From: Leucobacter musarum subsp. musarum
GTDB lineage: Bacteria > Actinomycetota > Actinomycetes > Actinomycetales > Microbacteriaceae
NCBI RefSeq assembly: GCF_001273845.1
Contig: NZ_JHBW01000068.1
Location: forward strand, 1 to 64,000
Direction: 5' to 3'
Length of the DNA stretch: 64,000 nt
Made by a program: the position numbers and the translations under genes. The notes beneath the pieces are model-generated. The model searched no databases. It worked only from the letters and a program-made list of their open reading frames with translations, and had not been told where the DNA came from. Positions 12,076 through 26,081 of the stretch are shown piece after piece. The first letter of the stretch is position 1. Each line of letters starts with the position of its first letter.

Positions 12076-13299
12076 TTAGGGGAGCGGAATCGTGAGCGTG
12101 CCGGTCTCGGTGGGCGGCTCGATCGAACGGCCGCGCAGATCGGGCATCCACTTCATCGTCGCGAGCGCGACAATCGTGCCGCAAAGCAGCAGCGTCGCTG
12201 AGACGAGGATGGCGCCCTGTGCCTGCGCCGCGTCGATCGCTACGCCGGCGAGCGCCGAACCGATGGCCACACCGACGAGCTGGCCGGTGCCGATCCACCC
12301 GTAGGCCTCCGCAGTCTCAGAGAACCGCACGGTGGAGCTCACGATGGTCGAGATCGCCGCAAAGGTCGGTGCCGTGCCGAGCCCGCCGATGAAGAGCACC
12401 GCGCTGAGCCACCAGATATTGAGGCTGACGAGGCACGCGAGCGTACCGACGAGCACGACGAGCAGGCGCAGCGCAGTCGACCAGGGCCGCATCTCGCGAT
12501 GGCCGATGAGCAGGCCGCCCACGAGCGAACCGCCGGCGAACACGGCGAGCACGATGCCCGATTCCATGCTGCCGTGACCGCCGTGCGGCCCCGCGAAGGC
12601 GGCGACAATGCCGGCTTCGATCGCGGCGAACGAGGCGACAAGAAAGAAGCCGATGACGGTCGAGATGACCACGGTGGGGTAGCGCAGCACCGCGCCGAGG
12701 CCGCGCTTCGACGGCGGCAGCACGACCGTGCCGAGAGCCGGGCTCGAAATGAACCACGCGCCGCCCAACAGCATGAAGCCGGCGGCCACGCAGAGCCCAG
12801 CGGTCGTTGAGAACTGCGAGGTGACGAACACTGCGACGACGGGGCCGACGACCCAGATGATCTCTTGTGCCGATGCGTCGAGCGAGAAGAGCGCGGAGAG
12901 CTGTTTGCCCGGAACGAGTTTCGGGTACAGGGTGCGCACGGCCGGCGTGATCGGCGGGGTCGAGAGTCCGACGAGCAGCGCGATGCCGGTGACGATGACC
13001 AGCGGCAGATGCACGACGGCGATGAGCACGAGCAGCACGGCGCAGGCGATCGAGGTGACGGTCAGCACTGGGCGCATGCCCCAGCGCCCCATGAGACGGC
13101 TGCTCAGCGGGCCAGAAATCGCTTGGCCGATGCTCTGCGTCGCGAGCACGAGCCCAGCAGAACTGTAGTCACCGTAGGCGAGCTGAATGTGAAGCAGCAC
13201 GATGATCGACAGCATTCCGAAGGGAAAACGAGCCAGCAGCTGCGAGCCCAAAACGCGGAACACCCCCGGGTTCCGCCCCAAATCACGATACACGCCCAT
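12076..13299 (-). CDS. MFS transporter
   Basis: A 407-residue major facilitator with about 12 membrane helices. The start (MGVYRDLGRNPGVFRVLGSQ) is placed at the ATG at 13299, because upstream sequence contains the terminator of the neighbouring gene. Helix 2-3 region PLSSRLMGRWGMRPVL matches the MFS loop motif. The short N-terminus and overall form fit drug/metabolite exporters, but substrate is unknown. It precedes the DUF4349 gene on the same strand, with a GC stem over its stop codon (about 12059-12082). Confidence 0.85.
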   Translation of the reverse strand: MGVYRDLGRNPGVFRVLGSQLLARFPFGMLSIIVLLHIQLAYGDYSSAGLVLATQSIGQAISGPLSSRLMGRWGMRPVLTVTSIACAVLLVLIAVVHLPLVIVTGIALLVGLSTPPITPAVRTLYPKLVPGKQLSALFSLDASAQEIIWVVGPVVAVFVTSQFSTTAGLCVAAGFMLLGGAWFISSPALGTVVLPPSKRGLGAVLRYPTVVISTVIGFFLVASFAAIEAGIVAAFAGPHGGHGSMESGIVLAVFAGGSLVGGLLIGHREMRPWSTALRLLVVLVGTLACLVSLNIWWLSAVLFIGGLGTAPTFAAISTIVSSTVRFSETAEAYGWIGTGQLVGVAIGSALAGVAIDAAQAQGAILVSATLLLCGTIVALATMKWMPDLRGRSIEPPTETGTLTIPLP

Positions 13300-13431
13300 C
13301 AGGCGAGTATACGCGTGAAATCCGCGCAATTCGAGCCGATGATCGCCGATTTCGTGCGTCGAGTGGGTGAAGATCACGCGAATCCGAGGCGAAGTGTGCC
13401 TGCGGGGACGGAAAGTGTGTGGAGCAATGCA

Positions 13432-13475
13432 CGACGCCGGGCGAATCTTCTCACGAGAGGATTCGCCCGGCGTCG
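13432..13475 (-). terminator. Terminator after the DEAD-box helicase gene
   Basis: Perfect 16-bp arms (13432-13447 and 13460-13475) whose 12-base centre can pair further. It lies 34 bases past the helicase stop codon and before the MFS gene on the same strand, so it most likely separates the two transcription units. Confidence 0.8.
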
Positions 13476-13508
13476 AGATCACCGGTGCGGCGGGACACCG
13501 CACCGGCT

Positions 13509-15128
13509 TCAACTGCTGGTGGAGTAGACCGTGCTGCTGCCGCCGCCCTGAGCGCGACGACCGGTGCGACGACGTGCGCCGTCGCCCCCGCCGCGCTGCT
13601 CGCCCGAGCGGCCCTGGCCGCCCTGGCTGCGCTGCTGGCCGCCGCGCTCGCCCTGCGGCTGCCCGCCCTGGCCGCGACGCTGGCCGCCCTGGCCCTGGCC
13701 ACCCGAACGACGGCCCTGTCCGTCGCCCGATTGGCCCTGCTGCTGGCCGCCCTGACCACCGGCGCTGCCGGCACCCGACGCGCGGCCGCGGCCACCGCGG
13801 CTGCGCTTGCGCTTTGCATTGGCACCCGTGCTCGAACCCTGCCCAGCAGGGTTGTGGCCGGCGGCCCGCTGCTGCGCGGCCTGAGCCTCAGCGCGCTTGC
13901 GCTCGGTCTCGCGCGCGTCGACGCGCGGCGCGACCTCGCCGATCAGCTCGAGTACCTCGGGGTCGACGGTTGCTGCGTTCGGGTTCACCGAGCGGGGCTT
14001 GACGTTGATCTTCGCTGCACGCATGATCTGGCGCATCTCGCCCCGCTGCTCGGGGAGCACGAGCGTGACGACATCGCCCTCGTTGCCGGCTCGCGCCGTA
14101 CGCCCGGAGCGGTGCAGGTAGGCCTTGTGCTCGACCGGGGGATCGATGTGCACGACGAGATCGACGCCGTCGACGTGCACACCGCGGGCGGCGACGTCAG
14201 TGGCGACGAGCACCTTGGCGTCACCGCTGACGAACTCGGCGAGGTTGCGATCGCGTGCGTTCTGCGACAAGTTGCCCTGCAGCTCGACTGCGGGGATGCC
14301 GCGGGCCGTGAGCTGCTTCGCGAGCTTCTTCGCCTGGTGCTTCATGCGGGTGAAGAAGATGCGACGCGCGGTGCCCGAGGCGAGTGCCTCGATGAGCGCT
14401 TCCTTCTGCTCCTTGCCGGCGACCTCGAAGACGTGGTGCGTCAGCTGCGGCACCGGCGACTCGGCTGAATCGACCGAGTGCAGGATCGGATTGTGGAGGT
14501 ACTTCTTCACCACATTGTCTACGCCGTTATCGAGCGTCGCGCTGAAGAGGAGGCGCTGGCCCTGCTTGGGGGTCGCGTTCAGGATGCGGGTGACGACGGG
14601 CAGGAACCCCATGTCGGCCATGTGATCGGCCTCATCAAGCACGGTGATCTCGACGCAGCTGAGGCCGACGAGACGCTGCTTCATGAGATCGTCGAGACGG
14701 CCGGGAGCGGCGACGACGATGTCGATGCCGCCTTCGAGGGCGACTTCCTGGCGACGCTGCGGCACGCCGCCGAAGATGGTGGTCACCTTGACGCCCACCG
14801 GGTCGGCGAGCATCTTGACCGTCTCGGCGATCTGCGTCACGAGCTCACGCGTGGGAGCCAGCACGATGGCGCGCGGGCGGTTCGGGCGACGCTTCTGGGC
14901 GGCGCCCTCTGCCAGGTTTGCGACGAGGGGGATGCCGAATGCGATGGTCTTGCCCGAGCCGGTGCGGCCGCGGCCGAGTACGTCGCGGCCGGCGAGGGTA
15001 TCGGGAAGGGTATCGCGCTGGATCGGGAAGGGGGCGGACTTGCCGTTCTTCGCGAGTGCGTCAGCGATGGGGGCGGGGACACCGAGCTCGAGGAACGTGG
15101 GCGTCTGAGGAGTGGTCTGTTCGGTCAC
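13509..15128 (-). CDS. DEAD-box ATP-dependent RNA helicase with Arg/Gly/Gln-rich tail
   Basis: A 539-residue RNA helicase. The GTG at 15128 is chosen because GAAAGG lies upstream and the protein then opens with the Q-motif region (FLELGVPAPIADAL). Motifs seen are I (GRTGSGKT), II (LDEADHMADM), III (FSATLDNG) and VI (HRSGRTARAG). From about residue 395 the sequence becomes a long tail rich in Arg, Gly and Gln (repeated GGQ and GQ blocks). Such tails bind RNA and promote condensate formation in other DEAD-box proteins. Likely roles are ribosome assembly and mRNA turnover, particularly in cold. It is divergent from the GNAT-AAA+ gene across a 338-bp gap. Confidence 0.92.
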   Translation of the reverse strand: MTEQTTPQTPTFLELGVPAPIADALAKNGKSAPFPIQRDTLPDTLAGRDVLGRGRTGSGKTIAFGIPLVANLAEGAAQKRRPNRPRAIVLAPTRELVTQIAETVKMLADPVGVKVTTIFGGVPQRRQEVALEGGIDIVVAAPGRLDDLMKQRLVGLSCVEITVLDEADHMADMGFLPVVTRILNATPKQGQRLLFSATLDNGVDNVVKKYLHNPILHSVDSAESPVPQLTHHVFEVAGKEQKEALIEALASGTARRIFFTRMKHQAKKLAKQLTARGIPAVELQGNLSQNARDRNLAEFVSGDAKVLVATDVAARGVHVDGVDLVVHIDPPVEHKAYLHRSGRTARAGNEGDVVTLVLPEQRGEMRQIMRAAKINVKPRSVNPNAATVDPEVLELIGEVAPRVDARETERKRAEAQAAQQRAAGHNPAGQGSSTGANAKRKRSRGGRGRASGAGSAGGQGGQQQGQSGDGQGRRSGGQGQGGQRRGQGGQPQGERGGQQRSQGGQGRSGEQRGGGDGARRRTGRRAQGGGSSTVYSTSS

Positions 15129-15466
15129 GGGGACCTTTCGTGCACAGGCGCGAGCGTGCATCAGTCGCGCAGCACCGGTGCGGTGGGCGAGACGAGCAGC
15201 GTCGCGGCAATGTCGGCGAGTGCGCGGTTGCGCATCCGTTCGCCGCGGAGAGTCGGAGGTCTGGCAGCCGCTCACGGGCCGCCGCCTGCTGAGAATCAGC
15301 GACGCACGAGCCGGCACGGCCGACTCGCAACCGCCAGTCTAGCGGAGGCGACCCTGAGCCGTCATCCTGCCGAGAACTTTCCACAGGCGGAAATATCCGC
15401 GATCTTTCGTCCACAAGTTGCCGAGAGCGCATGTTGCGGTCGGAACGGTTCTGCCAGCATGAGCGC
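15129..15466. promoter_or_regulatory. Divergent intergenic region, helicase / GNAT-AAA+
   Basis: This 338-bp stretch holds no convincing gene. It should contain the promoter and long 5' leader of the helicase gene and the promoter of the rightward gene. A short inverted repeat, GCGGA-AATA-TCCGC (15387-15400), is the only symmetric element I see. I could not assign -35/-10 boxes with confidence. Confidence 0.5.
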
Positions 15467-16759
15467 ATGACTCGTATCACGATCCGCGAATTCCACGACG
15501 ACGACCTCGACGCCGTTGTTCGGCTCTGGTGGGAGGCGCGCTCCACATCGGAACAGCCCGTCTACTCGCTCGCCGAGGTCACGGCGTCGTGTCGGGAAGA
15601 CCACGCGATGGTCGCCGTCCGAGACGATCGCATTGTCGCGGCGGCGGTCGGTCGTGCCGCACACGCGCAGGGGTGGATCGTGTTCTTCGGCGTCGATGAG
15701 AACGCGCGCACGGAGAACATCTCAGGGGCGCTGCTCGACGCGCTCGAGCGCAAGATGGCGCCTCTCGGGCTGGGCACGCTGTCGGTGCTCATGCCCGAGG
15801 GCAGTCGCATCGATCTGCTCACCGCGAACGGATTCCAACTGCAGCACAACCTCCGTTACCTTGAGCGGCAGATGCCGGTGCAGCGGCGCGAACTGGAGGT
15901 GCTCAAAGACCTGGGCGGTCGCATGCTGCCGCGCCACCTGTGGGAGCAGGTCGCGGGTATGCGCCGCGAGAAGCAACTGCTCGAAGAGCGCCTGGTCGCG
16001 CCGCTCGCGCAGCCCGACCTCGCCGATCGATACGGCGTGGTGCCGCCCCACGCGGTGATGCTGTTCGGGCCGCCCGGAACCGGCAAGACGACGTTTGCGA
16101 AAGCGGTGGCCTCGCGGCTCGACTGGCCATTCGTCGAGGTGTTCCCGTCTCGGCTCGGCGATGGTTCCACGAGTATGGCGTCATCGCTGCGCAGCGTCTT
16201 CGAGCACATCGCGGAACTCGAGCACGGCGTCGTCTTCATCGACGAGGTCGAAGAGATCGCGTCGCAGCGCAGCGACCCGCCGACGCCGACCCAGGGGGTG
16301 ACGAACGAACTCCTGAAGATCGTCGCCGACTTCCGCGATCGCGAGGGCATGCTGCTCGTCTGCGCGACGAACTTCGTGCGCGCTCTCGACGCCGCGTTCC
16401 TGCGTCACGGCCGATTCGACTACGTCCTGCCGATCGGTCTGCCCGATGCCGAGGCGCGCGAGGCGATTTGGCGCAGGTACGTGCCGAGCGGCGTTGCGGA
16501 GGCGATCGACTTCGCTCGTCTGGTCAACGAGAGCGACGGGCTCACCCCCGCAGACATCGAATATGCGGCTCGGCGCGCCTCGCAAGACGCGTTGGCGCGA
16601 GTGCTCCGGGGCGGCGCGGGGGCGGCTCAGGCCACCGGATCCCGCACCGACCTCACGAGTGACGACTACCTCGCCGCGCTCGCCGTGACCCGCGCGACGG
16701 TCTCCGAGGAACAGCAGTCCGCGTTCCTCGAAGACATCGACACGCTCGCGCGGCTCTAA
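15467..16759 (+). CDS. GNAT acetyltransferase-like domain fused to AAA+ ATPase
   Basis: A 430-residue protein in two parts. Residues about 1-130 look like a GNAT fold (MTRITIREFHDDDLDAVVRLWWEA opening, split around later strands). Residues about 160-420 form a classic AAA+ module with Walker A GPPGTGKT (201-208), Walker B VVFIDEVEE (about 255), a sensor-1 Asn in CATNFVR and an arginine-finger-like RHGRFD. The ATG at 15467 is chosen; the earlier ATG at 15431 has no GNAT-like sequence after it. The GNAT part seems short of a clear acetyl-CoA loop (Q/RxxGxG/A), so it may be a binding rather than catalytic domain. Its 3' end overlaps the opposing MFS gene. No function is known to me. Confidence 0.75.
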   Translation: MTRITIREFHDDDLDAVVRLWWEARSTSEQPVYSLAEVTASCREDHAMVAVRDDRIVAAAVGRAAHAQGWIVFFGVDENARTENISGALLDALERKMAPLGLGTLSVLMPEGSRIDLLTANGFQLQHNLRYLERQMPVQRRELEVLKDLGGRMLPRHLWEQVAGMRREKQLLEERLVAPLAQPDLADRYGVVPPHAVMLFGPPGTGKTTFAKAVASRLDWPFVEVFPSRLGDGSTSMASSLRSVFEHIAELEHGVVFIDEVEEIASQRSDPPTPTQGVTNELLKIVADFRDREGMLLVCATNFVRALDAAFLRHGRFDYVLPIGLPDAEAREAIWRRYVPSGVAEAIDFARLVNESDGLTPADIEYAARRASQDALARVLRGGAGAAQATGSRTDLTSDDYLAALAVTRATVSEEQQSAFLEDIDTLARL

Positions 16760-18144
16760 CGGGCGTCGGCGTCCCGAAGGTCGGGGAGCGAGACAAGACC
16801 CGAGTCGCTCAGCGACTGATGCTTCGTCTCGGGAGCCCAGAGCACCGACACGATGAGCCCGACTGCCAGTACGCCGGCGAGCACGAGCATTGTCGGGCCG
16901 ACGCCGAACGACGCCATGAGCACGGGCAGCAGGAAGGTGCTGATGACCGACCCCAGTCGACTGATCGCCGTGGCGAACCCGATGCCCGAAGAGCGCACCG
17001 GCGTCGGGAAGCTCTCCGCAGGGAAGACGCCCACGAGATTCGAGACGGCCGACAGTACGAAGGTGAAGACGGCGAAGAGCACGACCGACACGACGGTGGC
17101 AGCGGTCGGCGCGAGCGCCAGCGCGACCAGTGAGCAGGTCAGCACGATGAGGGATCCGATGAGGAACCCGCGACGTGTGAACTTGGCGGTCGCCCAGATG
17201 CCGGCAAGCGCGCCGGCGAGCAGGAAGACGTTGAGGTACACCTCGACGGCGTAGCCGCTGCCGGTGCTCGCGAGGTTCGAGAGGCCCATGCTGTCGAGGA
17301 TGTTGGGCAAGAACGTGTAGATCGCGAAGTAGGGCATGACGATGCACGCGAAGAAGATGCAGTTGAAGAGGGTGCGCCGCAGATACCTGCGGCTGAAGAG
17401 CGCCGAGAAGCCGCCGGCCTCGGTTTCGACCTCGCGCTGCATCACGACGTTCGTGCCGAAGTGCTTGTCGAGGATCGCGCGAGCCTCGGCATCGCGCCCC
17501 TCGCGCTGCAACCAGCGCGGCGACTCGGGGGTGCCGATACGGGCGATCAGCACGATGGCGGCGATGAAGCCCGGCGCGATGAGCATCCAGCGCCATGCAT
17601 CCTCGATACCCGACTGCATGAACCAGATGCCGAGCATCGTCGCGAGCACGTACCCGAACGTCCAAATCACCGAAAACGACCCCAGGATTTCGCCCCGTCG
17701 CTTCTGCGGCAGGATCTCGGCGAGCATCGCGTGGCCCACGGCGTAATCACCGCCGATTCCGAGACCGAGGATGATGCGCAACGCGAGCAACTGCCAGGGT
17801 TCCTGCACCCAGAACTGCGCGAGCGTCGCAACGGTGATGACGACGAAGCTGATTGTGAAGATCTTCTGGCGGCCCAACCGGTCGGCGACCGAGCCGAAGA
17901 GCATGGCCCCGGCGAAGAGACCGAAGAGCGCCCCGGCGCCGAGCGCACCCGTCCACCAGGCGTTCAATTCCATGGCACCCTGCTGGCCAATGAGCACGAT
18001 GGCCATGCCGATGATGCCCACGGCGAAGCCGTCGTTGAAGTGCGCGCCGAAGGTCAGGGCGGTGATGCGGAAGTGGAATCGGTTGAGCGGCAGATGATCG
18101 AAATCGACGGTCTGCGTCTGCGCTGTGGGTGTGGTCTGAGTCAT
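16756..18144 (-). CDS. MFS transporter, metabolite:H+ symporter type
   Basis: A 462-residue transporter with 12 expected helices and an N-terminal cytoplasmic extension. The loop motif after helix 2 (GSVADRLGRQKIF) and the helix 4-5 signature (LGLGIGGDYAVGHAMLAE) match the sugar/aromatic-acid:H+ symporter group of MFS proteins. The ATG at 18144 is preferred to the one at 18165, since GAAG lies just before it. It follows the Fae-like/dehydrogenase operon on the same strand, with a hairpin between (18177-18210). It may import the substrate of that pathway. It shares its stop bases with the opposing GNAT-AAA+ gene. Confidence 0.85.
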   Translation of the reverse strand: MTQTTPTAQTQTVDFDHLPLNRFHFRITALTFGAHFNDGFAVGIIGMAIVLIGQQGAMELNAWWTGALGAGALFGLFAGAMLFGSVADRLGRQKIFTISFVVITVATLAQFWVQEPWQLLALRIILGLGIGGDYAVGHAMLAEILPQKRRGEILGSFSVIWTFGYVLATMLGIWFMQSGIEDAWRWMLIAPGFIAAIVLIARIGTPESPRWLQREGRDAEARAILDKHFGTNVVMQREVETEAGGFSALFSRRYLRRTLFNCIFFACIVMPYFAIYTFLPNILDSMGLSNLASTGSGYAVEVYLNVFLLAGALAGIWATAKFTRRGFLIGSLIVLTCSLVALALAPTAATVVSVVLFAVFTFVLSAVSNLVGVFPAESFPTPVRSSGIGFATAISRLGSVISTFLLPVLMASFGVGPTMLVLAGVLAVGLIVSVLWAPETKHQSLSDSGLVSLPDLRDADAR

Positions 18145-18176
18145 GTTCTTCGCTTTCGGCGTCATTGACGATAGTC

Positions 18177-18210
18177 GACCGGCCCGGGAGCGCGGGCTTC
18201 CGGGCCGGTC
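18177..18210 (-). terminator. Hairpin between aldehyde dehydrogenase and MFS genes
   Basis: Eleven-base GC arms (18177-18187 and 18200-18210) lie 15 bases past the dehydrogenase stop and 33 bases before the MFS start codon. It may terminate or attenuate the operon, giving lower expression of the transporter. Confidence 0.65.
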
Positions 18211-18224
18211 AGATGATGGGGGAG

Positions 18225-19694
18225 TTACGAGGCGAGGGGATCCGCGATGCCGACGTACACGGTCTCCAAGAATTCGCAGATGCCCTCAGCGCCGCCTTCG
18301 CGGCCGAGACCCGACTGCTTCACACCGCCGAACGGTGCAGCCGGGTTCGAAACGAGCCCGGTGTTGAGCCCGAACATGCCGGTCTCGAGACGCTCTGCCA
18401 GTCGCAGCGCTCGGTTGAGGTCCCGCGTGTAGGCGAACGCGACCAGCCCGTACTCGCTGGCATTCGCGAGGCGGATCGCCTCCGACTCGTCGGCAAAGGT
18501 CACAATGGGCGCGACCGGCCCGAAGATCTCTTCGCTCAAGATACGCGCGTGCTGGGGCACCCCGGTGAGCACCGTGGGCGGGTAGAAGTACCCCGCCGTA
18601 TCCGCGGGCGCGGCCCCGCCGAGCGCGATGGTCGCTCCTTCGGAGACCGCCTCATCGACGAGCCCCGACACCTTGGCGCGAGTCGCCTCGTCGATCAGCG
18701 GGCCGATAGTGACTTCGGCGTCGAGACCGTCGCCCTGCACGTACCCCGCCATGCGCGCAATGAGCTTGCGCGAGAACTCCTCGGCGACGCGCTCGTGCAC
18801 GAGCATGCGGTTGGCTGCGACGCATGCCTCGCCGCCGTTGCGCAGCTTGGCGACGAGCGCTCCTTCGACCGCCGCGTCGACGTCGGCGTCTTCGAACACG
18901 ATGAACGGGGCGTTGCCCCCGAGTTCCATCGACACGCGCAGCACCTGATCGGCCGAGTCGCGGATGAGACGCTTGCCGGTCGGGGTGGAGCCGGTGAACG
19001 AGAGCTTGCGCAGTCGATCGTCGGTGATGAGCGGGCCCGTGACCGCTCCCGCCTGCGACGTCGGAATGACGTTGACGACTCCCGCAGGGACGCCGGCTTC
19101 GAGCAGGATCGCCGCGAAGGCGAGCGCCGTGAGCGGCGTCTGCGACGCGGGCTTCAGCACCGAGGTGCAGCCGGCCGCGAGCGCCGGAGCGATCTTGCGC
19201 GTCGCCATCGCCAGCGGGAAGTTCCACGGGGTGATGAAGAGGCTCGGGCCGACCGGGCGGTGCAGCACGAGCAGGCGGCTGCGGCCGTCGGGGGAGAGCG
19301 TGTAGCGGCCATCTATGCGCACCGCCTCCTCCGAGAACCAGCGCAGGAACTCGGCTCCGTACGCGACCTCGCCGAGCGATTCGGCGAGCGGCTTGCCCAT
19401 CTCAAGCGTGATGATGCGGGCGAGTTCGTCGCGGCGCGCGATGGTGAGCTCCCAGGCGCGGCGCAGAATCTCACCGCGCTCGCGCGGCGGCTTCGCGGCC
19501 CAGGATTCCTGCGCCGCAACCGCGGCATCGAGCGCCGCGGCTCCGTCGGCCACGCTGGCGTCGGCGACCGAGGCGAGCGCTGCCCCGGTGGCCGGGTTCA
19601 CCACGGTGATGGTCGATCCCGAACTCGCGTCGCGCCATTCGCCGCCGATGAGCAACTGCGTCGGCGTGCCCTCGGGGAGCTGGGCCGCGCTCAC
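18225..19694 (-). CDS. NAD(P)-dependent succinate-semialdehyde dehydrogenase family enzyme
   Basis: A 489-residue aldehyde dehydrogenase of the GabD type. It starts with GTG at 19694, overlapping the TGA of the preceding gene by four bases (GTGA), which implies translational coupling. Features: TPWNFPLAMATRKIAPALAAG, the catalytic Glu in MELGGNAPF and the catalytic Cys in GEACVAANR. Full length for the family (about 480-490). In this operon it probably oxidises an aldehyde or semialdehyde produced by the upstream dehydrogenase. It is only moderately similar to the shorter paralogue at 5129-6487. Confidence 0.9.
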   Translation of the reverse strand: MSAAQLPEGTPTQLLIGGEWRDASSGSTITVVNPATGAALASVADASVADGAAALDAAVAAQESWAAKPPRERGEILRRAWELTIARRDELARIITLEMGKPLAESLGEVAYGAEFLRWFSEEAVRIDGRYTLSPDGRSRLLVLHRPVGPSLFITPWNFPLAMATRKIAPALAAGCTSVLKPASQTPLTALAFAAILLEAGVPAGVVNVIPTSQAGAVTGPLITDDRLRKLSFTGSTPTGKRLIRDSADQVLRVSMELGGNAPFIVFEDADVDAAVEGALVAKLRNGGEACVAANRMLVHERVAEEFSRKLIARMAGYVQGDGLDAEVTIGPLIDEATRAKVSGLVDEAVSEGATIALGGAAPADTAGYFYPPTVLTGVPQHARILSEEIFGPVAPIVTFADESEAIRLANASEYGLVAFAYTRDLNRALRLAERLETGMFGLNTGLVSNPAAPFGGVKQSGLGREGGAEGICEFLETVYVGIADPLAS

Positions 19695-20656
19695 GCGGCG
19701 GCCTCAGCCGAAGCGACGTCGGCCTCGGCGGGCAGCCGCAGCTCGGTGCCGAGCAGATCTTCATACAGCTTGAACGGGGTCATCTCGCCGGCGCGATCGC
19801 CGTAGCTGCGCTTCGCGCGGCGATAGATCTGCTCGACGAGCGACGACAGCTCCGCGGGAATGCCCACCGATCGCGAGAGGTCGATCGAGAGACCCAGGTC
19901 TTTGCAAGCGAGGGCGATGGCGAACCCTTCGTCGTAGTCGCCGTGGTCGAGAATCGACCGCACGTCGTGCTCCAAGAAGTTGCTATTCGCGGGGCTTGCG
20001 ATGAGTGAGCGGCGCAGCACATCGAGCTCGACTCCGGCTGCCGTGCCAATCGCCAGAACCTCTGCGGTCGCCACAAGATGCGAGAACCAAAGCTGGTTGA
20101 TCATGAGCTTGACGGCGTAGCCGGCGCCGGGGCGGCCGACGTGCAGAATGCGCTTGGGATCACCCATTGCCTCGAAGACCGGGAACAGAGAGGCGAACTG
20201 ATCGTCAGTCGCACCGACGAAGATCTGCAGGGCGCCGTTCGCCGCACCGACGGACATGCCGCTCACCGGAGCATCGACGATCTCGATGCCGCGTTCGGCC
20301 GCCTCGGCGCGCACGTGATTCGCGACGTCGGGCACGGAGGTCGACATGTCGATCCAGGTCTTGCCCTGCGAGAGCCCGGCGAGCAGTCCGTCGGTGCCCT
20401 GCAGTGCGGCCTCGATGATGCGCGGCGTCGGCAGCATCGTGATGACGACGTCGCTGCGACGGGCGACGTCAGCGGCAGTGTCGGCCCACTCGGCTCCGGC
20501 GGCGAGCTGCTCGGCAGCGGCTTCGCGGCGTACGTCGGTGACGACGAGACGGAACCCGGACGTCAGCAGGTTGCGGGTCATGCCCGACCCCATGTTGCCG
20601 AGGCCGATGAAGCCGACGATGGTGTTCTCAGTGGTGTGAAGATCAGCGTGCGACAC
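19691..20656 (-). CDS. NAD(P)-dependent 3-hydroxyisobutyrate dehydrogenase-family oxidoreductase
   Basis: A 321-residue beta-hydroxyacid dehydrogenase. The GTG at 20656 is preceded by GGAGG and gives a protein opening near the NAD motif GFIGLGNMGSGM. The substrate-binding signature (DAPVSGMSVGAANG) and the catalytic Lys in GAGYAVKLMINQ are visible. Relatives reduce tartronate semialdehyde or oxidise 3-hydroxyisobutyrate and similar acids. Its start overlaps the end of the Fae-like gene by 14 bases and its end overlaps the aldehyde dehydrogenase start, so the three are one coupled operon. Confidence 0.88.
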   Translation of the reverse strand: MSHADLHTTENTIVGFIGLGNMGSGMTRNLLTSGFRLVVTDVRREAAAEQLAAGAEWADTAADVARRSDVVITMLPTPRIIEAALQGTDGLLAGLSQGKTWIDMSTSVPDVANHVRAEAAERGIEIVDAPVSGMSVGAANGALQIFVGATDDQFASLFPVFEAMGDPKRILHVGRPGAGYAVKLMINQLWFSHLVATAEVLAIGTAAGVELDVLRRSLIASPANSNFLEHDVRSILDHGDYDEGFAIALACKDLGLSIDLSRSVGIPAELSSLVEQIYRRAKRSYGDRAGEMTPFKLYEDLLGTELRLPAEADVASAEAAA

Positions 20657-21173
20657 TGTTCGCCACCTCCTCGCTGGGGGTGTAGAAGGGATTTGACGTG
20701 GAATTGCGGAGTGCGACGACCTCGGCCGGGCGCGGGGTGTTCTCGGCACCCGCGATCAGCGCCTTGCGGGTGGCCTCGCGGTTGTTGCGGTAGATCTCGT
20801 CGTGGTCATCGGTGCCCGGGTTCACCCAGACGGCGACGATGAGCGCGTGGGAGTCGGCGAACTCCTGCGAGATCACCCCCTCGGCGACGGCGTCGGCGAC
20901 GCCTGCCGCGACTCCCGCCTGCGCCGGGCCCCAGATCGCGGTGCCGTGGAAGTCGCCCTCGGGGGCGGCCTTGGAGACGAACAGGGTCATGGGCTTGACC
21001 GGAACGGACGGCTGCATGACCGCGACGAACGGAACGAAGCCGGCGCTCGGTGACGCGAGCGCGGTCGCCCATGCGGTGCCGACTGCGCCGCGACGGTCGC
21101 CGAAGACCGTGTTGATGTGTGCGGCATTGACGCCGCTGCCGACGAAGCATTCGCCGAGCTGAACCGTGTCCAT
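20643..21173 (-). CDS. Formaldehyde-activating enzyme (Fae)-like protein
   Basis: A 176-residue protein that matches the Fae family across its length. The opening VQLGECFVGSG and the AAHINTVFGDRRG segment place a His at residue 19, corresponding to the conserved catalytic His of Fae. The region PVKPMTLFVSK and GPAQAGVAAGVADAVAEG are further family blocks. Canonical Fae condenses formaldehyde with tetrahydromethanopterin (H4MPT), a cofactor that actinobacteria of this kind are not known to make, and no H4MPT genes are in view. It may therefore act on another carbonyl compound or cofactor. First gene of a tightly overlapping operon with two dehydrogenases; divergent from an IclR regulator. Confidence 0.82.
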   Translation of the reverse strand: MDTVQLGECFVGSGVNAAHINTVFGDRRGAVGTAWATALASPSAGFVPFVAVMQPSVPVKPMTLFVSKAAPEGDFHGTAIWGPAQAGVAAGVADAVAEGVISQEFADSHALIVAVWVNPGTDDHDEIYRNNREATRKALIAGAENTPRPAEVVALRNSTSNPFYTPSEEVANSVAR

Positions 21174-21286
21174 GGGGACCTCGCTGTCTGGGATTCGGGT
21201 GGTGTGGACGCGCAGGTGCCGAGGCCCTGCGCTTCGATCTCGCCTGCCGAGCGTGCGGCAGTGAGGATGACGATAAGAAGCCGTCG

Positions 21287-21318
21287 CCGATATGCGCAAA
21301 CTTGGTTGCGCATATCGG
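21287..21318. promoter_or_regulatory. Operator: perfect 13-bp inverted repeat
   Basis: CCGATATGCGCAA (21287-21299) and TTGCGCATATCGG (21306-21318) are perfect reverse complements, six bases apart. They lie in the 187-bp gap between the Fae-like operon and the IclR gene, at a spot where a bound dimer could affect both promoters. Its symmetry and position make it the likely binding site of the neighbouring IclR protein. Confidence 0.75.
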
Positions 21319-21360
21319 TACCGTGGGGCATGCTGAGGTGCAGAATGAGAGGAGGGCGAC

Positions 21361-22329
21361 GTGACTGAGCCCACTGCGACGGCGCCACGAGCGTCGTCGG
21401 CCAGCGCATCGACGTCCGCTGATCCGGAACCCCTCGAGGCCGCCGCCCCAACCGGCGCCGATGCGCGGCGCACCAATTCCGCAGGGCTCGGCCGAGACAT
21501 TCGTCTGCTCGAATTGCTCGCGAGTGACGGCTCCACTCGCGTCGGCGGGTACGGGGTGACTGACCTCGCCCGCCTCACCGGACGCAGCAAAACGGTGGTA
21601 TCTCGCGCGCTCGCCACACTCGCCGAGTCGGGGCTCGCGGCTCGCGACGCCCGCACGGGTCGGTATTCCGTCGGCCCGAGACTCTTCGCGCTCGCCGCAC
21701 GATCATCAGAAGCGCAACTTGTCGCGAGCGGACGCCCGGTGCTCCGCGGTCTCGTGCGCGCCACCCACGAGACCGCGCACCTCTGCGTGCTCGCGCACGG
21801 CAACGTACTCACGCTGGCAAGCGAGCTCAGTCCGCACGAGCTCCGGTCAGCGGGGTGGGAAGGCACGGTCACCGCGGCGTGGCGCACCTCGTCGGGCCGC
21901 GTACTCGTCAGTGACTGGGACGAGCCCTCGCTGCATGCCTGGTACCGGGCGCACGGGCAGGATCGCACCGTCATCGATGACCAGGTCTTCGGGCGCGAGG
22001 CGAACCCGTTCTTCCTGCTCGACGAGCCCCCAGCGCTCTCTCGCATCTCCGACTACGCAGGTCTGCAGGCCGAGATCGACCGCATTCGGGGGTGCGGGTA
22101 CGCACTGCTTGACGAGGAGCTTGAAACCGGCATCGTCGGGGTCTCTGCACCGGTGCGCGATCACACCGGACGCATCATCGCCGCGGTCAACGTCAGTGGG
22201 CCAAAAGAGCGGCTCGGCGACAAGCTCGACGCGCTCGGAGCCGTCGTGCGGCAAGCCGGGGCGGCGCTCTCGCAGACGCTCGGCGGCGGCGATGGGGCAG
22301 TGCGCACGAATGTCGGTGGTGCGCGGTAG
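21361..22329 (+). CDS. IclR-family transcriptional regulator of the Fae-like operon
   Basis: A 322-residue regulator, GTG start with GGAGG six to eight bases upstream. An unstructured Ala/Ser/Pro-rich N-terminus (about 40 residues) precedes the winged HTH (LGRDIRLLELLASDG, then LARLTGRSKTVVSRALATL). The IclR effector domain follows, closing with GIVGVSAPVRDHTGRIIAAV. Members are usually repressors or activators released by a pathway metabolite. It faces the Fae-like operon, with a perfect inverted repeat between, so control of that operon and of itself is likely. Confidence 0.9.
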   Translation: MTEPTATAPRASSASASTSADPEPLEAAAPTGADARRTNSAGLGRDIRLLELLASDGSTRVGGYGVTDLARLTGRSKTVVSRALATLAESGLAARDARTGRYSVGPRLFALAARSSEAQLVASGRPVLRGLVRATHETAHLCVLAHGNVLTLASELSPHELRSAGWEGTVTAAWRTSSGRVLVSDWDEPSLHAWYRAHGQDRTVIDDQVFGREANPFFLLDEPPALSRISDYAGLQAEIDRIRGCGYALLDEELETGIVGVSAPVRDHTGRIIAAVNVSGPKERLGDKLDALGAVVRQAGAALSQTLGGGDGAVRTNVGGAR

Positions 22330-22406: not shown

Positions 22407-25400
22407 GTGTTCGTGCAGCAGCACCCTGACGGGTCGGGCTATCGGCTGGTCACCAGCGCCAGCGACCTCACCGCAGCGAGCAACTGCGAGTTCGCGTTCC
22501 TGCGTCGACTCGACGCCAAGCTCGGGCGCGATGTGGTCGTGCCGCCCGACGACGACCCGATGCTGCGCCGAGCCGCCCAGCTGGGCGACGCGCACGAAGC
22601 ACGCGTGCTGCAGGCGTATTTTGCCGAGCTGGGGCCTGGTTCCGTTGGGGAGCCGGGCGGCGTCGTCGAGATTCCGCGCCCGACGTCGATGTCGGCGCAG
22701 CACCTCTCCGAGGTCGCCTTCGCGACCGTCAACGCGCTGCTCGGCGGTGCCGATGTCGTCTTTCAGGCCACCTTCTTCGACCCCGCGCAACGGCCCGCCC
22801 GCGACGATGTACCCGAGATCGGCTTCGTGGGGTTCGCCGACTTCCTCAGGCGACGCCCCGATGGCCGATTCGAGGTGCAAGACACGAAACTCGCTCGGCG
22901 CGCAAAGGTGACGGCCCTGATGCAGCTCGCGGCATATGCCGAGCAGCTCGAACGGGTCGGGGTGCCCGTGCATGACAGCGCAGTGCTCATTCTGGGCGAC
23001 GGCGCCGAGTCGCGTCATCGCATCGCCGACATCGCCCCGGTGTTCCGCGCGCGCCGCCAGCGGTTGCACGCACTCATCGCGGAGCGCGCAATCGCGCGCG
23101 GGAGTGACGGTGCGATCGGATCGGCGCCACCGGTGGCCTGGGGGTCGCTCGATATCGTCGCTTGCGGTCGGTGCGAGGTGTGCGAGCCCGAGATCGAACG
23201 CACCCGAGATCCGCTGCTCATCGCAGGCATTCGCGCGGCGCAGCGCGACGCGCTCGTCGCGGCGGGCTTCGATTCGCTCGAGCGCGTCGCGGCGCTCACC
23301 GTGTCTGATCCGAGTTCCGAAACCGTGGTACCCGGGGTAGCGGCACCGGTGCTGCACCGTCTCGCCCAGCAGGCGCGTCTGCAGTGCGAAGTCACCGCAG
23401 ATGCGCCGCCTCCGGTTGCTGTCGTCGACGCGGCGGCGCTCGCCGCGATCCCCGCCGCCGATGCCGGCGATCTCTTCTTCGATTTCGAGGGCGATCCGCT
23501 GTACCGTGCTCCGGGCCCCGACGGCACCGCCCGCTGGGGCATCGACTACTTGTTCGGCATGGTCGACGTCGACGAGCAGTTCACCGCGCTCTGGGCGCAC
23601 GACCTCGACGCAGAGCGCGAGGCGCTCGAGCAGTTTCTCGAGCTGGTCGCCGACCGGCGGCGTCGGTTCCCGGGTATGCACATCTACCATTACGCCGCCT
23701 ACGAGCGAACGCACCTGGCTTCAATCGCCGCCCGGCACGGCGTCGGCGAGGCTGAAGTCGACGCACTGTTCCGAGACCATGTGCTGGTCGATCTCTACCC
23801 GATTGTGCGCGCAGCGCTGCGCATTGGTACAAGCTCGTACTCCATCAAGAAGCTCGAACCGCTCTACATGGGCGACGCGCTCCGCGATGCCGACGGGGTC
23901 ACGTCGGGCGCTCAATCAGTCACCGAATACGCCGAAGCGAGTGCTCAGTTGGGCTCGGCCGATAGTGACATTCGTGCCGAGGGCCAGCGCCGCATGGACG
24001 CCATCGGCGACTACAACGCATACGATTGCGTCTCGACACTGCACCTGCGCGACTGGTTGCTCGAGATTGCTCAGGCTCACGCCGTCACACCGTATACACC
24101 CGCACCGCTCGCCGAGGCCGGCGGCCCGCAGCTCGACCTCAGCGCGACCGGAGTGGCGCTCGCCGCGCACGCGGAACGTCTCGCGAGCGACGGGCAGCCC
24201 GGCGACCGCACAGCGGCAGCCATCGCCGCCAGCGCGATCGACTATCACGAGCGTGAGCAGAAGTCGTTCTGGTGGGCGCACTTCGCTCGGTTGATCGACC
24301 CGGTCGAAGATTGGGCCGACACGCGAGATGTGCTCGTCGTTGACCCGCAACGGAGCCGGGTCGTCGAAGCCTGGCACACGTCTCCGCGCGCCCGCAGCGA
24401 ACGCAGGCACGTGCAACTCGCCGGTGCTGCAGCACCCGGGTCGCGCTTCCGCGACGACGGTGACGCGTTCGCCGTGTACGCCTACCCGGCGCCGTTCCCG
24501 CAGTACGGTGCTGCGCCCGGGTCGCGAGGCGCCCGTCAGGTGACGGTGATCGAGGGCCACGATGACGGTGCGGTGATCCGAGAAACGGTGCCCGCGGGCG
24601 TCGAGCCGTTTGCTGACCTGCCCGTGGCGCTCACCCCGGGCCCTCCGCCTCGAGCGGGTGCGCAGAAGGGCGCGATCGAGGAGTGGGGTGCGGGCCTGGC
24701 GCGTTCGCTCGACGCCGGAGCTTTCCCCGCCGACCCCGTAGTCGATCTCCTGCGTCGCCAGCCGCCGCGTCTGCGTGGAGGCGACGAACTCGTCTCTGAA
24801 CATTCAGCTGAGGCGATCGCGCTCATGGGCGGTGACGCCGAAGCGGGCCGCATCGGGGCCGTCATCGCCTCCGTGCGCGCGCTCGACCGCTCGGCGCTCG
24901 CCGTGCAGGGGCCGCCCGGCACGGGTAAGACGTATCTTGCTGCGCGGGTCATTGCGCACCTCGTCGAGCATCACGGCTGGTTGATCGGGGTCGTCGCCCA
25001 ATCTCATCGGGTCGTCGAAAATGTGTTGAGCGGTGTGGTGTCGGCGGGGTTGCCGGCCGGGCTCGTCGGCAAGGCGACGCAGCGCGGCGCATCTGCCGCA
25101 GACATCGCCGCACTGCCGTTCACCGCGCTGCGAAGCGGGGGGCAGGCCGCGTTTCTCGCCGGGCACCAGCGGGCGGGTCGCGGAGCGGTCATCGGTGGCA
25201 CCGCATGGGACTTCAGCAACGCAGACCGCGTGGGCCGGCATCAGCTCGACCTGCTCGTCGTCGATGAAGCCGGCCAGTTCTCCCTTGCGCCGACGATCGC
25301 GGCATCCGTCGCCGCGAGGCGACTCCTCCTGCTCGGAGACCCGCAGCAGCTGCCGCAGGTCTCGCAGGGTTCCCACCCCGAGCCCGTCGACACCTCGGCA

Positions 25401-26081
25401 CTCGGCTGGCTCGTCGGTGATCACGAGACGCTCCCCGAGCAGCTCGGGTACTTCCTCGCCGAGACGCGGCGCATGCGGCCCGAACTCGCTGACGTGGTGT
25501 CCGAACTCGCGTACGAGGGGCGTCTCCGCGCGCATCCCAGCGCATCGCGGCGCGAAGTGACGGGCGTCGGCCCTGCCGGGCTGCATTGGCACCCGGTGCG
25601 GCACTTCGGTAACGCGACCTCATCACCGGAAGAAGCCGAGACCGTTGTCGCGACCGTGCGAGCGGCGTTGGCGGGTCGGTTGCGCGAAGCCGGGGGGCCG
25701 GAACGGCCGCTGACCGCTGCCGACCTCATCGTCGTCGCCGCCTACAACGCGCAAGTTGAGTGCGTGAGCGATGCGCTGCGCTCCCATGGCCTGGGTGACG
25801 TGCGCGTTGGCACGGTCGACAAGTTCCAAGGGCAGGAAGCGGTGATCGCGATTGTCACGCTCGCGGCGTCGAGCGCCGCAGACGTGCCGCGCGGCCTGGA
25901 GTTTCTCCTCATGCGCAACCGACTCAATGTGGCAATCAGCCGCGCGCAATGGTCCGCTCATCTCGTGTCATCTGACCGCCTCGGCGACGGGCTGCCGACA
26001 AGCGCCGAAGGCGTGACCGCTCTGTCGGGGTATCTCCGTCTTGTGGAACGCGCGCACGCCGCTAACGTGGAGGCATGGTGA
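22407..26081 (+). CDS. TM0106-type RecB-like nuclease / RNase H-like / SF1 helicase fusion
   Basis: A 1224-residue multidomain protein, GTG start after GAGAGGA. Residues about 1-190 form a RecB-like PD-(D/E)XK nuclease with the motif FEVQDTKL and a following QLAAYAEQL. A YprB-type RNase H-like exonuclease domain begins near residue 355 with FFDFEGDP. The C-terminal third is a superfamily 1 helicase: Walker A GPPGTGKT (835-842), DEAG (953-956), LLLGDPQQLPQ, the motif V region TVDKFQGQEA and motif VI NVAISRAQW. The set suggests a nucleic-acid processing enzyme for repair or foreign DNA, but the family's role is uncharacterised. It overlaps the next gene's start by seven bases. Confidence 0.88.
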   Translation: MFVQQHPDGSGYRLVTSASDLTAASNCEFAFLRRLDAKLGRDVVVPPDDDPMLRRAAQLGDAHEARVLQAYFAELGPGSVGEPGGVVEIPRPTSMSAQHLSEVAFATVNALLGGADVVFQATFFDPAQRPARDDVPEIGFVGFADFLRRRPDGRFEVQDTKLARRAKVTALMQLAAYAEQLERVGVPVHDSAVLILGDGAESRHRIADIAPVFRARRQRLHALIAERAIARGSDGAIGSAPPVAWGSLDIVACGRCEVCEPEIERTRDPLLIAGIRAAQRDALVAAGFDSLERVAALTVSDPSSETVVPGVAAPVLHRLAQQARLQCEVTADAPPPVAVVDAAALAAIPAADAGDLFFDFEGDPLYRAPGPDGTARWGIDYLFGMVDVDEQFTALWAHDLDAEREALEQFLELVADRRRRFPGMHIYHYAAYERTHLASIAARHGVGEAEVDALFRDHVLVDLYPIVRAALRIGTSSYSIKKLEPLYMGDALRDADGVTSGAQSVTEYAEASAQLGSADSDIRAEGQRRMDAIGDYNAYDCVSTLHLRDWLLEIAQAHAVTPYTPAPLAEAGGPQLDLSATGVALAAHAERLASDGQPGDRTAAAIAASAIDYHEREQKSFWWAHFARLIDPVEDWADTRDVLVVDPQRSRVVEAWHTSPRARSERRHVQLAGAAAPGSRFRDDGDAFAVYAYPAPFPQYGAAPGSRGARQVTVIEGHDDGAVIRETVPAGVEPFADLPVALTPGPPPRAGAQKGAIEEWGAGLARSLDAGAFPADPVVDLLRRQPPRLRGGDELVSEHSAEAIALMGGDAEAGRIGAVIASVRALDRSALAVQGPPGTGKTYLAARVIAHLVEHHGWLIGVVAQSHRVVENVLSGVVSAGLPAGLVGKATQRGASAADIAALPFTALRSGGQAAFLAGHQRAGRGAVIGGTAWDFSNADRVGRHQLDLLVVDEAGQFSLAPTIAASVAARRLLLLGDPQQLPQVSQGSHPEPVDTSALGWLVGDHETLPEQLGYFLAETRRMRPELADVVSELAYEGRLRAHPSASRREVTGVGPAGLHWHPVRHFGNATSSPEEAETVVATVRAALAGRLREAGGPERPLTAADLIVVAAYNAQVECVSDALRSHGLGDVRVGTVDKFQGQEAVIAIVTLAASSAADVPRGLEFLLMRNRLNVAISRAQWSAHLVSSDRLGDGLPTSAEGVTALSGYLRLVERAHAANVEAW

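Follow-up and report, generated by a model that had tools for sequence, protein, structure and literature searches.

The N-domains of VCP-like and Cdc48 ATPases recruit substrates or adaptors (eLife 2018, PMC6017811). In the gene considered here this position is taken by a domain of the GNAT fold, a combination that has been recorded in databases: RefSeq labels some members 'bifunctional GNAT family N-acetyltransferase/ATP-binding protein', and WP_007297117.1, encoded on plasmid pROB01 of Rhodococcus opacus, has the same architecture and length as the protein described below and is 46.6% identical to it over 99% of the chain. A literature search for the GNAT-AAA fusion found no paper. Since RefSeq already names members and no functional paper was found, GNAT-AAA is a known but uncharacterised architecture, which is rare but not unique. 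The gene is located in the window, i.e., the complete stretch of 64,000 nucleotides of Leucobacter musarum subsp. musarum that was analysed, and its product falls under the RefSeq bifunctional GNAT/ATP-binding proteins by architecture and full-length similarity. The following features were assigned.

15467..16759, + strand: GNAT-AAA gene, 430 aa plus stop (open reading frame; orthologues align full-length)
15467..15883, + strand: N-terminal GNAT domain, residues 1-139 (Pfam PF00583, fold matches, profile match to YpeA)
15707..15724, + strand: degenerate acetyl-CoA pyrophosphate loop (residues 81-86), which reads RTENIS instead of RxxGxG/A (alignment with loop-intact relatives)
15884..15961, + strand: conserved linker, residues 140-165 (invariant L146, GGR 150-152, W159, and GM 164-165)
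15929..16609, + strand: classical AAA ATPase module with lid, residues 155-381 (PF00004, weak AAA_lid_3, archaeal VCP-like alignment, fold search)
16067..16090, + strand: Walker A GPPGTGKT, residues 201-208 (all 81 homologues keep G201, G206, and K207)
16142..16192, + strand: pore-loop 1 region (FPSRLGDGSTSMASSLR, residues 226-242), which lacks the usual aromatic
16235..16246, + strand: Walker B FIDE, residues 257-260 (all 119 homologues keep D259 and E260)
16370..16372, + strand: sensor 1 asparagine N302 (invariant in 119 of 119)
16403..16414, + strand: arginine fingers R313 and R316 in RHGR (invariant in 119 of 119)
16748..16756, + strand: conserved extreme C-terminus A-R-L (ARL in 48 of 81)

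The reading frame is also open from an ATG at 15431, which would extend the protein to 442 aa, but 15467 is the point from which relatives align. The closest orthologue, from L. chromiiresistens, shares 89-90% protein identity. A single pattern scan of genome contigs yielded 51 orthologous loci, which together with the invariance of the AAA catalytic residues in all 119 homologues places the gene far above chance. Open reading frame and Pfam matches agree with the original prediction of a 430-residue chain that carries a GNAT N-terminus and an AAA+ C-terminus. With regard to the extreme C-terminus of 81 homologues, arginine is the penultimate residue in all tripeptides listed, and most end in A-R-hydrophobic.

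The occurrence of the architecture was surveyed in samples at the genus, family, class, and phylum level, in one pattern scan of genome contigs, and in plasmid and phage sets. It was observed in 27 of 54 Leucobacter genomes, 43 of 199 genomes of the family sample, 41 of 296 of the class sample, and 31 of 396 of the phylum sample, i.e., with a patchy spread. Plasmid copies were found in 23 records from Rhodococcus, Streptomyces, Arthrobacter, Tsukamurella, and kin; in 22 of these the match spans at least 80% of the protein. The phage and viral sets gave no full-length match to the fusion and matched the AAA part alone; a phage origin was rejected on these grounds. The architecture, described at the outset as unusual, is thus rare according to this survey of the domain combination, but it belongs to an established, RefSeq-named family of the Actinomycetota. 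A contig labelled 'Acidobacteria bacterium isolate G2_35' (L041) encodes a GNAT-AAA protein that groups with those of Cryobacterium and other Microbacteriaceae, and its label is probably wrong. Furthermore, two contigs labelled Frigoribacterium sp. JB110 and Microbacterium halotolerans (L021 and L022) have a common gene order, and their GNAT-AAA proteins are almost identical, pointing to mislabelling or transfer.

Several independent comparisons assign the N-terminal half to the GNAT fold. In the whole protein, PF00583 matches residues 17-105 with 22.6 bits (gathering score 20.7), and the E-value is 1.7e-05 when the N-terminus is searched alone. A profile search with the N-terminal half finds YpeA (E 1.2e-15), to which its sequence is most similar. 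The predicted structure of residues 1-150 (pLDDT 88.9) has the GNAT strands and helices in the expected order and matches the GNAT enzyme 2pdo in Foldseek (E 3.4e-09). VIA-align places the model on 4lx9 (Z 16.4, rmsd 2.6 over 128 residues) and, with Z about 16, on archaeal Ard1 and other N-terminal acetyltransferases. Thus the GNAT fold originally read from the N-terminus was recovered by Pfam, Foldseek, VIA-align, and the YpeA profile alike, and structure prediction, which might have returned another fold, returned this one. The likeness to YpeA-type acetyltransferases covers fold and sequence over residues 3-134 (PRK03624 at 9.8e-12), but the window protein scores 44.8 against a cut-off of 124, lacks the loop glycines and the canonical tyrosine, and is joined to an ATPase.

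The AAA half matches PF00004 at residues 197-324 (E 4e-27), and among solved structures it is closest to VCP-like and Cdc48 ATPases. It carries Walker A, Walker B, sensor 1, and two arginine fingers, so that the AAA+ module is intact as had been proposed. The Walker A lysine is likewise invariant in 119 of 119 homologues, and position 208 is occupied by threonine in 79 and by serine in 2 of 81. Due to the invariance of the catalytic residues in all 119 homologues, ATP hydrolysis is expected. With Cdc48/VCP and PAN the protein has in common the AAA catalytic residues, the fold, and the order of N-domain followed by AAA; it differs from Cdc48 and PAN in that a GNAT fold replaces the usual N-domain, in having one AAA module, and in a pore loop 1 devoid of the aromatic. 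No such aromatic was observed at positions 228-240 in 79 of 81 and 115 of 119 homologues in two alignments, which makes unfolding of the threading type less certain. The PAN model (136.2, cut-off 500) and the pup_AAA model of Mpa (67, cut-off 504.75) both remain below their cut-offs, and 20S proteasome/HslV subunits (PF00227) are absent from the organism's own genome and from 54 Leucobacter genomes, whereas the same model does detect HslV in E. coli. For these reasons a proteasomal role in the source organism appears unlikely. A C-terminal HbYX motif is absent, the protein ending in A-R-L.

In the window protein, both glycines of the RxxGxG/A loop are gone (R81-T-E-N-I-S in the alignment), and with RTENIS the loop departs from the Q/RxxGxG/A pattern of active GNATs. 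The missing acetyl-CoA loop pointed out in the original prediction is therefore real for the clade to which the window protein belongs, but not for the family: 71 of 119 homologues satisfy the RxxGxG/A rule, most members outside the window clade retain the loop, and WP_007297117.1 has an intact one (RGQGLG). Judged from these alignments, the missing loop is a derived state, deeper relatives having kept RxxGxG/A. In an 80-row tree built from the AAA part only, 36 loop-lost members including the window protein form one clade with support 99, which comprises Leucobacter, Brevibacterium, Yaniella, Tsukamurella, Frigoribacterium, and some Microbacterium and is embedded in loop-intact relatives; the same tree places another loop-lost group elsewhere. 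Parsimony requires two loop changes on this tree and five on a larger, rougher one. A single origin of all losses received a p-AU of 0.019 with locus L063 and of 0.074 without it, so that at least two independent losses are favoured by the test but not proved. The loss covers nearly the whole window clade and extends over at least four bacterial families, including Tsukamurellaceae, as well as a Tsukamurella plasmid, from which we conclude that the altered form persists. One Leucobacter protein (L096, RGDGAA) is counted as intact by the simple loop rule, yet all rows closest to it are loop-lost Leucobacter, and its loop looks like drift.

The loop change by itself is no proof that acetyl-CoA binding is lost. 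It is conceivable, though unlikely, that in spite of its non-standard loop the GNAT half has remained an active acetyltransferase, to which the AAA half delivers a protein substrate or for which it unfolds one. The retention of RxxGxG/A in most members outside the window clade is in agreement with such an enzyme, as are W70, E94, G101, and G122, which are mostly retained in loop-lost and loop-intact groups alike. On the other hand, nearly the whole window clade is devoid of both loop glycines, the loop is the fastest-changing part in Leucobacter and Brevibacterium, and the canonical tyrosine of Y-x-x-x-G-F was found in none of the 119 aligned homologues, loop-intact ones included. This tyrosine is not universal among active GNATs, many of which do without it.

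Neighbouring genes were called with a codon-based caller suited to GC-rich DNA. Among the neighbourhoods compared, no conserved partner gene was observed beyond the genus Leucobacter, and hence the gene context gives no pointer to the substrate. In Brevibacterium, a dihydrodipicolinate synthase-family gene and a TetR regulator gene are adjacent; in other genera, the neighbours are an MFS transporter, oxidoreductases, aceA/aceB, or encapsulin with a Dyp peroxidase. On the Rhodococcus plasmid pDK2 (L090 5817-10836), GNAT-AAA is flanked by Hsp20 genes on one side and by a Dyp-peroxidase/encapsulin pair on the other, which resembles a stress context. The glyoxylate-cycle genes aceA/aceB adjoin GNAT-AAA on Arthrobacter and Paenarthrobacter plasmids, and such metabolic neighbours would suit a loop-intact GNAT domain that senses acetyl-CoA and gates the ATPase, the window clade having lost sensing and running constitutively or on another ligand. 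That loop-intact members keep the loop yet lack the canonical tyrosine points in the same direction, but the neighbourhoods are highly variable and ligand gating is a conjecture, for which reason we consider this explanation quite improbable.

In 12 other Leucobacter loci, a RecB-like nuclease/helicase gene is located immediately 3' of GNAT-AAA on the same strand; the gap, measured in two loci, is 162 and 127 bases. In the window it is found 5.6 kb downstream, past an intervening block:

16756-22046, minus strand: MFS transporter, aldehyde dehydrogenase, 3-hydroxyisobutyrate-type dehydrogenase, formaldehyde-activating enzyme (Fae)
22407-26081, + strand: TM0106-type RecB-like nuclease fused to a helicase, 1224 aa

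An assignment of the downstream gene of approximately 1230 aa as PutA was rejected in favour of the TM0106-type RecB-like nuclease/helicase. Fae is unexpected in Leucobacter; it occupies residues 296-454 of a 467-aa frame that may be over-extended. The nuclease gene that follows in 12 Leucobacter loci, the patchy distribution, the plasmid copies, and matches of the AAA half to PADLOC IetA (E 2.8e-30) and NCBIfam IteA could indicate an anti-phage defence ATPase like IetA. However, the likeness is that of a related AAA module and is confined to the AAA half, the IteA score is 99.1 at a cut-off of 510 with Cdc48/PAN models scoring higher, no subtilase/peptidase (IetS) was detected among the neighbours scanned (12076-22046 and 22407-26081), and no nuclease link was seen outside Leucobacter, so that a defence role of this kind is very doubtful.

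The constraint on the GNAT half was compared with that on the AAA half. In Leucobacter, pN/pS amounts to 0.189 for the GNAT body when the loop is left out, to 0.183 for the AAA half, and to 0.452 for the loop itself; in Brevibacterium, the GNAT body (0.297) is less constrained than AAA (0.099). The slope of GNAT against AAA divergence is 1.79 across loop-lost pairs and lies between 1.20 and 2.04 in loop-intact groups, i.e., relative to AAA the GNAT half does not diverge faster in the loop-lost clade. R7, D13, E37, C42, R63, H66, Q68, E94, and E133 are fixed in all 36 members of this clade. In the genus and family surveys the GNAT-AAA frames are undamaged in nearly all genomes. One copy in the same bacterial family (G534:C1:1290575-1291855) has an internal TAG and is thus possibly a pseudogene. 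That the GNAT half is a decaying remnant without a role, as the repeated loss of the loop might imply, is hardly credible in view of the intact frames, the nine fixed residues, and a Leucobacter GNAT body under purifying selection equal to that on the AAA half, which argues against a simple relic. Based on this constraint and the unaccelerated divergence, the GNAT domain has probably retained a role for which the loop is dispensable. The loop loss and the constraint on the GNAT body also fit the earlier suggestion that the GNAT half recognises rather than acetylates its target.

We therefore put forward, with about an even chance of being correct, a Cdc48/PAN-like ring ATPase whose non-catalytic pseudo-GNAT domain selects a substrate or partner and derives from an acetyl-CoA-binding ancestor. 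The interpretation builds on intact ATPase residues, loss of the loop, and constraint on the GNAT body, as read from sequence comparison, and on a GNAT fold supported by modelling. By analogy with what is known of the family, this classical AAA ATPase, a single-ring relative of Cdc48 and PAN, would most likely assemble as a hexamer and use ATP to remodel or unfold proteins, with the GNAT-fold domain at the site of the Cdc48/PAN substrate-binding N-domains. In the ancestor of the family, acetyl-CoA probably bound to this domain; in the window clade, after the loop was gone, the domain would have become a non-catalytic receptor for a substrate or partner.

It is tempting to speculate, as a tentative extension, that the family at large represents bacterial AAA unfoldases with a GNAT-fold substrate receptor, in which an acetyl-CoA-binding form repeatedly gave rise to a pseudo-acetyltransferase receptor. 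If true, this would add a new type of N-domain to those of protein-remodelling motors, and the GNAT receptor might read protein N-termini or lysines, a guess that follows from N-terminal acetyltransferases such as Ard1 being the closest structural matches. In the loop-intact branch, the acetyl-CoA level might be linked to protein turnover. What bacterial AAA motors act on is the usual bottleneck in their study, and a receptor derived from an acetyltransferase would provide a testable guess. The loop-intact and loop-lost branches would then constitute a natural experiment on the importance of acetyl-CoA binding for a motor of this type.
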